Positions 31,787-46,143 of a stretch of 58,043 bases of DNA are shown piece by piece. A program made the position numbers and the translations under genes. Every line of letters begins with the position of its first letter. The first letter of the stretch is position 1. Location of the stretch: assembly GCA_022833215.1 (NCBI GenBank), contig JAIPUZ010000063.1, positions 1 through 58,043 on the forward strand. The letters run 5' to 3'. Source of the DNA: Mesorhizobium sp. Lineage in GTDB: Bacteria > Pseudomonadota > Alphaproteobacteria > Rhizobiales > Rhizobiaceae. Below the pieces are notes generated by a model. The model was not told the DNA's origin. It saw nothing but the letters and a program-made list of their open reading frames with translations, and did not search any database.

Positions 31787-34480
31787 ATGTATGCCAACAA
31801 CGATTCGAGCCCCCTCCTGACCGAGCAGCGCGAGGGCGACGTCGACCCCCGCGAGACCGCGGACTGGCTGGCCTCGCTCGACTCGCTCCTGCGGCACGGC
31901 GGCAAGGAGCGCGCGCGCTTCGTCCTTTCCTCGCTGGAGGAGAAGGCCAAGGAGCTCGGCGTCCTGCCCGACACGCCGCCGTTCTCCCCCTATCGCAACA
32001 CCATCCCGCTCGATGCGCAGCCGCCGTTCCCGGGCGACACCGCCATGGAGGAGCGCATCACGGCGATCCTGCGCTGGAACGCGCTGGTCATGGTCATGCG
32101 CGCCAACAAGGCCTACGGCGATCTGGGCGGCCACATCGCCAGCTATGCGTCGGCTGCCGAAATCTTCGAGCTGGGCTTCAACCATTTCTTCAGGGGGGCC
32201 GATGCGGAAGGCGGCGGCGACCTCGTCTTCTTCCAGCCGCATTCCGCGCCGGGCGTCTATGCGCGCGCCTTCCTAGAAGGCCGCCTGTCGCAGGCGCATC
32301 TGGAACGCTACCGGCAGGAGATCGGCGGGCCGGGCCTGTGCTCCTATCCGCATCCGTGGCTGATGCCCGATTTCTGGCAATTGCCCACCGGCTCGATGGG
32401 CATCGGGCCGATCAGCGCCGTCTACCAGGCGCGCTTCATGCGCTACCTGCGCGACCGCGGCCTCGCCTGCACGGACGGGCGCCATGTCTGGGGCGTGTTC
32501 GGCGACGGCGAGATGGACGAGCCTGAATCCGTTGCCGGTCTCTCCCTCGCCGCCCGCGAAAAGCTAGACAACCTGACCTTCATCATCAACTGCAACCTCC
32601 AGCGCCTCGACGGTCCGGTGCGCGGCAACGGCCAGATCATCCAGGAGCTGGAGATGCTGTTCCGCGGCGCCGGCTGGAACGTGGTCAAGGTGCTGTGGGG
32701 CTCCGAGTGGGACGCGATCTTCTCGCGCGACACCAACCACGCACTGCTGCGCCGCTTCGCGGCCACGGTGGACGGCAAGTACCAGACGCTCGGCGCCAAG
32801 GACGGAGCCTACAACCTCGCCCATTTCTTCGACGAGGACCCGGAAGTGCGCGCGCTGGTCGCGCATATGTCGGACCGCGACGTCGACGCGCTCAGGCGCG
32901 GCGGGCACGATTTCAGGAAGCTCTACGCCGCCTTCGAGGCCGCGCGCGCCACGAAGGGCCGCCCGACCGTCATCCTCGCCAAGACCAAGAAGGGCTACGG
33001 CATGGGCGGCGCGGGCGAATCGCGCATGACCGCCCATCAGGCCAAGAAGCTCGACGTCGAGGGGCTCTACGCCTTCCGCGACCGCTTCGCGCTGCCGCTG
33101 ACCAACGAGCAGGTCGAGGGGCTGGAGTTCTACCGCCCCGCCGAGGACAGCGCCGAGCTCACCTATCTGCGCGGACGGCGCGCGGCGCTCGGCGGCTACC
33201 TGCCGCAGCGCCGGCGCACCGCCGACAAGGTCCCGGTGCCGGCGCTCGACTCCTATGCCGACTTCGCGCTGAAGGCGGACGGCAAGGAGATGTCCACCAC
33301 CATGGCGGCGGTGCGCCTGTTCGGCAATCTGCTGAAGGACAAGGCGCTCGGCCCCCGCATCGTGCCGATCGTCGCCGACGAGGCGCGCACCTTCGGCATG
33401 GCGAACCTGTTCCGGCAGGTGGGCATCTATTCGCCGGTCGGCCAGCTCTACGAGCCCGAGGATGCGGGTACCATGCTCTACTACAAGGAGGCGGTCGATG
33501 GGCAGCTTCTGGAGGAAGGCATCACGGAGGCCGGCGCGATCTCGTCATGGACCGCCGCCGCCACCGCCTACAGCGCCCACGGCACGCCGATGCTGCCCTT
33601 CTACATCTATTATTCGATGTTCGGCTTCCAGCGAATCGGCGACCTGATCTGGGCCGCGGCCGACCAGCGCTCGCGCGGCTTCCTGATCGGGGCGACCGCC
33701 GGGCGCACCACTCTGGGCGGCGAAGGGCTCCAGCATCAGGACGGGTCGAGCCATGTCATGGCCGCCGCCATCCCCAACTGCCGCGCCTATGACCCCACCT
33801 ATGCCTACGAGATGGCCGTCATCCTCGATCATGGCGCGCGCGCGATGATGGAGGAGCAGAAGGACGAGTTCTACTACATCACCGCGATGAACGAGAACTA
33901 CGCCCAGCCGTCGATGCCGGAGGGCGTGGAGACGGACATCGTCAAGGGCCTCTACAAGCTGGCGACGAACGCAGCGAAGAAGAGCGCGCCGGGCGTGCGC
34001 CTCGTCGGTTCGGGGGCGATCCTGCCCGAGGTGGTCGAGGCGGCAAAGATGCTGATGGAGGATTGGGGCGTCGGCTCCGAGGTCTTCTCCGCCACCAGCT
34101 TCTCGCAGCTTGCGTGCGACGCGCGCGAGGCCGAGCGCCACAACCGGCTCAACCCGCTCGCCGAACCGCAGGTCTCGCATCTGGCCGCCACCCTGCAGGG
34201 CGATGTGCCGGTGATCGCGGCGTCCGACTATGTCCGCGCCTGGCCGCAGCTCATCGCTGCCTATGTCGATGCGCCGTTCACCGCGCTGGGCACGGACGGC
34301 TTCGGGCGCAGCGACACGCGCACGGCGCTGCGCGCCTTCTTCGAGGTCGACCGGCACCAGATCGTGCTGGCCGCCCTTTCGGCGCTGGCAAAGGAAGGCA
34401 CGGTCCCGCGCGAGACGGTCGCCGAGGCCATAGCGCGCTATGGCATTGCGCCCGACGCGCCCGCGCCCTGGACCGTGTGA
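31787..34480 (+). CDS. aceE: Pyruvate dehydrogenase E1, homodimeric type
   Basis: Thiamine-diphosphate-dependent E1 component that decarboxylates pyruvate and acetylates the E2 lipoyl group, 897 residues, the usual length for the single-chain type. The ThDP/Mg motif reads FGDGEMDEPESVAG and ends in NCNLQRLDGPVRGNG. The C-terminal transketolase-like halves are present, as in EAGAISSWTAAATAYSAHGT. Most Hyphomicrobiales use the two-subunit PdhA/PdhB E1, so this looks like an acquired or additional complex. E2 and E3 follow. Confidence 0.97.
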   Translation: MYANNDSSPLLTEQREGDVDPRETADWLASLDSLLRHGGKERARFVLSSLEEKAKELGVLPDTPPFSPYRNTIPLDAQPPFPGDTAMEERITAILRWNALVMVMRANKAYGDLGGHIASYASAAEIFELGFNHFFRGADAEGGGDLVFFQPHSAPGVYARAFLEGRLSQAHLERYRQEIGGPGLCSYPHPWLMPDFWQLPTGSMGIGPISAVYQARFMRYLRDRGLACTDGRHVWGVFGDGEMDEPESVAGLSLAAREKLDNLTFIINCNLQRLDGPVRGNGQIIQELEMLFRGAGWNVVKVLWGSEWDAIFSRDTNHALLRRFAATVDGKYQTLGAKDGAYNLAHFFDEDPEVRALVAHMSDRDVDALRRGGHDFRKLYAAFEAARATKGRPTVILAKTKKGYGMGGAGESRMTAHQAKKLDVEGLYAFRDRFALPLTNEQVEGLEFYRPAEDSAELTYLRGRRAALGGYLPQRRRTADKVPVPALDSYADFALKADGKEMSTTMAAVRLFGNLLKDKALGPRIVPIVADEARTFGMANLFRQVGIYSPVGQLYEPEDAGTMLYYKEAVDGQLLEEGITEAGAISSWTAAATAYSAHGTPMLPFYIYYSMFGFQRIGDLIWAAADQRSRGFLIGATAGRTTLGGEGLQHQDGSSHVMAAAIPNCRAYDPTYAYEMAVILDHGARAMMEEQKDEFYYITAMNENYAQPSMPEGVETDIVKGLYKLATNAAKKSAPGVRLVGSGAILPEVVEAAKMLMEDWGVGSEVFSATSFSQLACDAREAERHNRLNPLAEPQVSHLAATLQGDVPVIAASDYVRAWPQLIAAYVDAPFTALGTDGFGRSDTRTALRAFFEVDRHQIVLAALSALAKEGTVPRETVAEAIARYGIAPDAPAPWTV

Positions 34481-34494
34481 ATCGAAGGCTGGCC

Positions 34495-45764: not shown

Positions 45765-45792
45765 AAAACAGATTAAACATAGGAGTATCCGA

Positions 45793-46143
45793 ATGAAGAA
45801 GAGCATATCGAACGTTACGCCCCGTGGATGGGGCGACAACTGCAACACTTGGGAACTGCTTAGCAGGCAGGATCTAGTCGTTTTCCACGAACGGATGCCA
45901 CCCGCAACAACCGAGGTAGAACATTACCACAATAAAGCCCGGCAGTTCTTTTTTGTACTCAAGGGCGAGCTTGCAATTAAGACGATGGGTAGTGATCACA
46001 TTCTAGGTGAGCATGAGGGCCTAGAAATACCACCCGGCGAATTGCATCACGTCCGAAATCTCTCCGCGGGAACGACCGAGTTTCTCGCCATCGCGCACCC
46101 AAGCACCGCTGGAGATCGCAGTTTTCCAGACCCGAGTTCATAA
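45793..46143 (+). CDS. Small cupin protein at the end of the importer operon
   Basis: Single-domain cupin, 116 residues. AGGAG at 45781-45785 fixes ATG 45793 and excludes the longer frame inside the ATPase gene. Metal-motif 1 is EVEHYHNKARQFFFVLKGE and motif 2 is GLEIPPGELHHVRNLS, both with good His/Glu ligands. It ends FLAIAHPSTAGDRSF, an ending nearly shared with the cupin at 49.0 kb (PSTSGDR). Position suggests it acts on the imported compound or a product, perhaps as an isomerase or lyase; this is inference. Confidence 0.88.
   Translation: MKKSISNVTPRGWGDNCNTWELLSRQDLVVFHERMPPATTEVEHYHNKARQFFFVLKGELAIKTMGSDHILGEHEGLEIPPGELHHVRNLSAGTTEFLAIAHPSTAGDRSFPDPSS

Follow-up and report, generated by a model that had tools for sequence, protein, structure and literature searches.

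We analysed a 58,043-nucleotide stretch of DNA from Mesorhizobium sp. (GenBank assembly GCA_022833215.1, contig JAIPUZ010000063.1), called the window below, which is contig C63 of a 4.55-Mb host genome. At positions 31787-46143, profile searches bore out the gene identities listed in a preliminary description of the sequence: a 2-oxo-acid dehydrogenase set (E1-E2-E3), three genes of the RraA fold (R1, R2 and R3), a class I aminotransferase (AT), a LysR regulator, an ATP-binding cassette (ABC) importer of the glutamate/aspartate type and a cupin (Table 1). The gene calls were confirmed by the same kind of searches, several starts being corrected to likely positions (those of E2, E3 and the cupin among them), and an earlier start of R1 is possible at 37659. 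E1-E2-E3 are tightly packed, as are R1-R2-R3-AT, and a gap of about 190 bases separates E3 from R1. Comparison with other genomes indicates that the conserved unit is R1-R2-R3-AT (37692-40958) and not the whole 14-kb region. We see about an even chance that this unit is a catabolic cassette, horizontally spread and LysR-inducible, for an acidic amino acid resembling glutamate or aspartate.

Table 1. Features of the R1-R2-R3-AT cassette and of its neighbourhood in the window.
Feature	Position	Strand	Basis or remark
Predicted LysR-type operator/promoter box of the R1-R2-R3-AT cassette	37606..37647	+	position matrix
R1, RraA-fold, Arg-Asp core, changed pocket	37692..38348	+	PF03737; residue map; tree
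R2, RraA-fold	38345..39055	+	PF03737; closest solved structure 3k4i (uncharacterised); tree; residue map
R3, RraA-fold, HMG/CHA-aldolase-like pocket	39061..39693	+	PF03737; closest solved structure 3noj; tree; residue map
AT, class I aminotransferase	39675..40958	+	closest solved structure aspartate aminotransferase A (6f77)
LysR regulator	41109..42047	-	cassette-LysR subfamily; here downstream and convergent
Glu/Asp-type (family-3) periplasmic binding protein, ABC importer	42577..43485	+	PRK10797 match; facultative cassette partner
ABC importer permease 1	43562..44317	+	profile search
ABC importer permease 2	44310..45014	+	profile search
ABC importer ATPase	45018..45764	+	profile search
Cupin behind importer	45793 (likely start)..46143	+	profile search
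E1, MdeB / TIGR03186 type	31787..34480	+	neighbouring unit, membership doubtful
E2 acyltransferase	34495 (likely start)..35772	+	TIGR01348 552.9 bits, cut-off 552.1; neighbouring unit
E3 dihydrolipoyl dehydrogenase with lipoyl domain	35777 (likely start)..37498	+	TIGR01350 461.6 bits, cut-off 408.8; neighbouring unit

To look at conservation, R3 was used as query against one genome per species and the best 80 of 198 relatives (59-83% identical) were kept; R3 is present in all 80 loci by design, and some of the loci are near-duplicates. R1-R2-R3 were ordered on one strand in 76/80 loci, AT lay 3' of the trio in 71 and a divergent LysR gene upstream in 73, and ordered trio, AT and divergent LysR gene were found together in 65. 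R1 was moved or turned in three of the four loci lacking the ordered trio (L076, L077 and L080); the fourth, L112, had no R1 among its listed matches and starts at a contig end just ahead of R2. The proposal that the aminotransferase and the RraA-fold genes belong to one operon is thus supported by a block conserved across the loci. Carriers were mainly Burkholderiales and Pseudomonas, but also, for example, Vogesella, Methylobacterium and Novosphingobium. The cassette is plasmid-borne as well, in Rhizobium, Burkholderia cenocepacia and P. aeruginosa, and a Pantoea plasmid record opens with R2-R3-AT-hydrolase. In the order of the host, a match to R2 at E <= 1e-60 was present in only 2/397 genomes, namely the host and one with a 53% identical protein, so the cassette was probably acquired. 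Its horizontal spread across the carriers is part of the interpretation given above, the whole of which we hold to be evenly balanced.

R1, R2 and R3 all matched PF03737 (106-129 bits, cut-off 24.5), and the tree, for which 82 of 261 rows were used, indicates that they are separate lineages: R2 and R3 each formed one side of a branch (support 100/97 and 100/99), and R1 formed a single group with weaker support (80/68). The solved structure nearest to R3 is that of a 4-hydroxy-4-methyl-2-oxoglutarate/4-carboxy-4-hydroxy-2-oxoadipate (HMG/CHA) aldolase; R1 shares with R2 the nearest structure 3k4i. We compared 13 sites of 3noj across the 261 rows (R1 85, R2 88, R3 88); R1 and R2 are so distant from 3noj that their mapping is approximate except in the Arg-Asp region. 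G101, R123 and D124 (3noj numbering) were kept in every row, and a search for the DGxxRD pattern found it in 83/84 R1, 87/87 R2 and 78/87 R3 fragments, the aligned Arg-Asp pair being present in all rows. In the P. putida HMG/CHA aldolase, Arg-123 is essential and Asp-124 and Glu-199 are metal ligands (PMC5065237). R3 keeps 10/13 sites, including this catalytic Arg-Asp pair (N71, H75, G101, R123, D124, G144, T145, K147, R195 and E199, in 87-88 of 88 rows). R1 and R2 are changed at positions 75, 145, 147 and 195; at position 71 R1 differs too and R2 has N in only 14/88 rows, and position 199 is Gln in 83/85 R1 rows. R2 keeps G144 and E199, and D102 is kept in R1 and in 87/88 R2 rows. As far as the residue map goes, R3 is thus alone among the three in having most of the HMG/CHA-aldolase pocket, and of the earlier idea of three HMG-type aldolases, the RraA fold holds for all three and the pocket for R3, not for R1 and R2. 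The latter need not be aldolases, since the RraA family includes a dehydratase/decarboxylase, FlDet of an alginate pathway (PMC8563752). FlDet is a precedent for non-aldol chemistry by this fold, although it comes from another organism and acts on another substrate.

A 42-base box was common to the regions upstream of R1: 77/85 loci passed the score used in building the matrix, which was made from other genomes with the window excluded. In the window the box scores 23.5, where the other loci have a median of 46.5, and it is unique in the window, the next best place scoring -6.7 and the best of 200 shuffles, which preserve single-base content only, 12.9. Since it lies after E3 and directly before R1, the cassette has its own promoter element. 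The box was also sought before E1 and before the importer in the window, and none was found. Nine other cassette LysR proteins share 55-96% identity with one another but 49-51% with the window LysR protein, which is thus a diverged copy or a replacement. On two Rhizobium plasmids the LysR gene is likewise downstream and convergent, and beyond it lies, in L121, an ABC importer of a different type in divergent orientation and, in L127, a gene for a binding protein. We infer that the cassette would be induced through its LysR regulator.

In four loci (L055, L078, L082 and L088) the trio is present, AT and the divergent LysR gene are absent and an aconitase X-like gene lies nearby; the box score before R1 is below 0 in L055, L078 and L088 and 13.8 in L082.

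Partner genes were then counted in the 80 loci at 40% identity over at least half of the query. An alpha/beta hydrolase was found in 56/80, subunits of a thiamine pyrophosphate (TPP)-dependent 2-oxo-acid decarboxylase in 13, an MHS-type symporter in 11, an aldehyde dehydrogenase and an acyl-coenzyme A (CoA) dehydrogenase in 9 each, a class III CoA-transferase in 8, a MaoC-like hydratase in 6, an aconitase X-like protein in 5, a threo-3-hydroxyaspartate-ammonia-lyase-like protein and a CitE-like lyase in 3 each, and E1 in one. As controls, 20 arbitrary 20-kb stretches, taken from six genomes of the host's genus and not from carriers, gave a single match, one aldehyde dehydrogenase. For the chance test we used 50 of the 80 carrier genomes, chosen by hand; many short contigs and metagenome bins were omitted, as were L042 and L119 (with the decarboxylase pair) and L076 (with the binding protein). 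The Poisson figures treat the genomes as independent and, the genomes being related, are guides and not exact probabilities. The beta subunit of the TPP decarboxylase had 24 copies in 23/50 genomes, 11 of them in the cassette locus versus 0.07 expected. Binding proteins of the window type numbered 152 copies in the 50 genomes (sum of the table column), with 5 copies in 4 genomes near the cassette versus 0.46 expected (P ~0.0001 by copies and 0.0013 by genomes). The hydrolase and the TPP decarboxylase are therefore stronger partners of the cassette than the importer, which is a minority, facultative partner (5/80 loci) found above chance. The proposed tie between importer and catabolic genes thus survives, weakly. 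The window binding protein matched the Glu/Asp importer model PRK10797 with 283.7 bits, below the cut-off of 375. The cupin had no match in the 80 cassette loci, and in the three plasmid records examined, close relatives of importer and cupin gave no sign of a shared operon.

On two unrelated plasmids (L120 and L122), genes annotated as 5-oxoprolinase PxpA and PxpB and as a biotin-dependent carboxyltransferase were seen near the cassette, on opposite sides. The same neighbourhoods hold a biotin carboxylase, a biotin/lipoyl-containing protein and a DUF4286 protein.

In L094, AT is followed by the decarboxylase, an acyl-CoA dehydrogenase, a CoA-transferase, a MaoC-like hydratase and a CitE/RipC-like lyase. 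The L094 TPP decarboxylase falls below the cut-offs for sulfopyruvate decarboxylase (TIGR03845 105 of 148 bits, TIGR03846 130.5 of 221.5 bits) and the lyase below that of the RipC model NF038242 (163 bits, cut-off 375). Since decarboxylase, CoA-transferase, acyl-CoA dehydrogenase and lyase are all under their cut-offs and the hydratase has no NCBIfam match, these names are leads. The CoA-ester genes of some loci appear to resemble those of itaconate or methylsuccinate degradation; several Pseudomonas loci, L094 among them, have members of the CoA-transferase, hydratase and RipC-lyase families behind the cassette. These genes differ from itaconate degradation in the low RipC score and in the rarity of the lyase, and no such run was seen in the window.

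In the pathway that we propose, AT would convert an imported acidic amino acid to the 2-oxo acid, and R3 would act as a metal-dependent pyruvate aldolase of the HMG/CHA type, releasing pyruvate from a 4-hydroxy-2-oxo acid. R1 and R2, with their putatively enolate-stabilising Arg-Asp core, may catalyse a neighbouring step (another aldol cleavage, a decarboxylation or a dehydration) or may join R3 in a mixed oligomer of the RraA type. The non-hydroxylated 2-oxo acid could be processed, in some other genomes, by a second branch made of TPP decarboxylase, aldehyde dehydrogenase, CoA-transferase, acyl-CoA dehydrogenase, hydratase and CitE-like lyase; a run of the L094 type together with an aldehyde dehydrogenase could lead from 4-methyl- or 4-methylene-2-oxoglutarate to acetyl-CoA and pyruvate. 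Importers of the acidic-amino-acid type, an AT resembling aspartate aminotransferases and an R3 pocket similar to that for 4-hydroxy-4-substituted 2-oxoglutarates all point to glutamate analogues as substrate. Our best guess, a plausible one as judged from the gene families, is a gamma-substituted glutamate: 4-methyl-, 4-methylene- or 4-hydroxy-4-methylglutamate. Such 4-substituted amino acids occur in legumes. The corresponding 4-methyl- and 4-hydroxy-4-methyl-2-oxoglutarate have been described as natural products (PMC11345546). The catabolic substrate put forward in the preliminary description is thus in line with the partner genes found elsewhere, which would fit a 4-substituted 2-oxoglutarate.

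Several observations weigh against this interpretation. Besides the hydrolase, LysR and AT, every counted partner is present in fewer than 20% of the loci, and 7 of the 13 loci with a TPP decarboxylase are Pseudomonas loci with similar clusters, which are not independent. The window itself is without the usual alpha/beta hydrolase, whose homologues in the host genome are weak (26-34% identity), and the CitE-like lyase has only 35% identical homologues there. AT is absent in 9/80 loci, all of which retain the trio, so transamination is not obligatory. The importer promoter, in the gap between LysR and importer, is without the box (score -15.3). R3 has Glu for Asp-102 (88/88 rows), Val for Leu-103 (86/88) and a gap at Arg-40 (88/88), and it stays under the cut-offs of the CHA-aldolase models PRK09262 (173.0 of 179 bits) and TIGR02798 (164.5 of 304.5 bits). 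It also differs from the HMG/CHA aldolase in being accompanied by two more RraA paralogues and an aminotransferase.

In a bolder and rather improbable reading, R1, R2 and R3 would be ancient RraA paralogues and obligate partners, either as one mixed oligomer or as three linked steps. Theirs would be the first pathway in bacteria dedicated to plant-derived gamma-substituted glutamates, and the reactions of R1 and R2 would be new for the RraA family. It is for this reading that the retention of the trio in the loci without AT matters, some of them lacking the divergent LysR gene too.

It is unlikely, in our view, that the cassette instead degrades aspartate or 3-hydroxyaspartate via oxaloacetate, supplied by AT or by a hydroxyaspartate ammonia-lyase and decarboxylated to pyruvate by the RraA-fold proteins. 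AT is nearest to aspartate aminotransferases, and the HMG/CHA aldolase also decarboxylates oxaloacetate (PMC5065237). In favour of such a route, two loci lacking AT (L046 and L072) have a threo-3-hydroxyaspartate ammonia-lyase homologue behind R3; L084 has one too. However, these homologues score 274-292 of 452 bits, under the cut-off, and oxaloacetate is a central metabolite for which no dedicated three-gene set is needed. R1, R2, the linked TPP decarboxylase and the CoA-ester genes would also be left unexplained.

The preliminary description had joined importer, AT, aldolases and E1-E2-E3 in one dedicated pathway to acetyl-CoA, a view that we find unlikely. It had called E1 a plain aceE; E1 does pass the aceE model (1443 bits, cut-off 860), but it also passes TIGR03186, 'AKGDH_not_PDH' (1556.3 bits, cut-off 1408), and among the best 25 of 213 matching plasmid records (63.5-78.8% identical) 21 are annotated mdeB, so that the first naming does not hold. 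From E1 to AT the genes are collinear on one strand, with a GC content at third codon positions (GC3) of 0.74-0.91 versus 0.62-0.71 for LysR and importer, L079 has an MdeB-type E1 beside the cassette, and the genome of L078 has an E1, 56% identical to that of the window, about 15 kb from R3. Against this, E1 was found within 10 kb of the cassette in one locus of 80 and E2 and E3 in none, and of the 87 E1 copies in the 50 carrier genomes 1 was in the cassette locus versus 0.26 expected (P = 0.23). Moreover, the cassette box sits between E3 and R1, and the host genome already has a pyruvate dehydrogenase (PDH) E1-alpha above the TIGR03182 cut-off. We examined 8 mdeB plasmid loci (8 of the 213 matching records): E1 stood with E2 or E2-E3 in 7/8 and alone in L136, amid varied catabolic neighbours, and none of the 8 had a match to R1, R2 or R3 at E <= 1e-5. 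In favour of the joint pathway, two of the 8 (L133 and L136) have an annotated rraA gene less than 10 kb from mdeB, though it does not match R1-R3. E1 being at chance level near the cassette and free-standing elsewhere, and the host having its PDH E1-alpha, E1-E2-E3 is best regarded as an accessory neighbouring complex and not as a proven step: a separate unit, of MdeB type by its TIGR03186 score, that is not conserved with the cassette and may use a 2-oxo-acid product. Thus, a complete island with its own pyruvate dehydrogenase was not recovered; among the four modules, co-occurrence held for the AT-RraA block, weakly for the importer, and not for the PDH module.

If E1 is of the MdeB type, the pathway might yield 2-oxobutyrate, a 3-methyl-branched substrate being cleaved or decarboxylated and the complex then making propionyl-CoA, which we consider quite unlikely. 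P. putida MdeB acts on 2-oxobutyrate. Besides the TIGR03186 match, a Bradyrhizobium plasmid carries a 76% identical E1 together with an E2 and an E3, followed by genes annotated as acyl-CoA carboxylase beta subunit, acetyl/propionyl/methylcrotonyl-CoA carboxylase alpha subunit and methylmalonyl-CoA mutase, and this run points to 2-oxobutyrate. However, the proposal depends on E1, and the association of E1 with the cassette is not conserved. It is extremely improbable that the RraA-fold proteins regulate RNase E instead of catalysing, and we rejected this: the fold is shared with E. coli RraA and RraA models gave weak matches, but these are far under cut-off (TIGR02998 29.3 of 241 bits for R1, with R2 and R3 absent from its listed matches; PRK09372, the RraA regulator, 27, 39.6 and 51 of 136 bits for R1, R2 and R3), the Arg-Asp pair is universal and the operon is conserved together with a metabolic enzyme.

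Returning to the catabolic cassette, each of its gene families is known; the operon of trio plus aminotransferase with its box is apparently undescribed, judging by titles and the openings of abstracts. In the open-licence literature judged in this way, most subscription papers lying outside it, we found no description of the operon or its chemistry. RraA-like genes are widespread, and many carry the name of a methyltransferase or a regulator; in 5/5 annotated cassette plasmid records examined, R3 is called 'dimethylmenaquinone methyltransferase' and R1 and R2 'RraA family protein'. An operon of three distinct paralogues, one of them with a recognisable aldolase pocket, is a place to learn the function of the others, and it gives a starting point, open to testing, for finding how bacteria of soil and roots may break down unusual acidic amino acids.

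Elsewhere in the host genome, contig C115 (L129, 38000-57000) has four more RraA-like genes inside 9 kb (C115 43504-52372), and frames that by eye resemble a HIBADH-like dehydrogenase and an enolase-superfamily protein lie beside one of them. A second E1, 72% identical, is on contig C91 (L128, 22000-35627) with E2- and E3-like frames behind it; this set adjoins frames resembling, by eye, acetyl-CoA acetyltransferase and acetoacetyl-CoA reductase. There are two htpG/Hsp90 genes, 78% identical, in the window (51641-53530) and on host contig C5 (79106-80968), and htpG is single-copy in most relatives giving a hit; with an estimated contamination of 4.43%, a mixed assembly is possible. No tRNA gene that could be an integration site was found in the window, and promoter and terminator scans of the window gave results no better than shuffles. 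Finally, the region 11461-31478 of the window has a lower GC3 (0.62-0.76) than the window ends (mostly 0.77-0.88) and contains a biotin-synthase-like gene, a ketopantoate-reductase-like gene and two GntR-aminotransferase fusion regulators, and it looks like a mosaic island.

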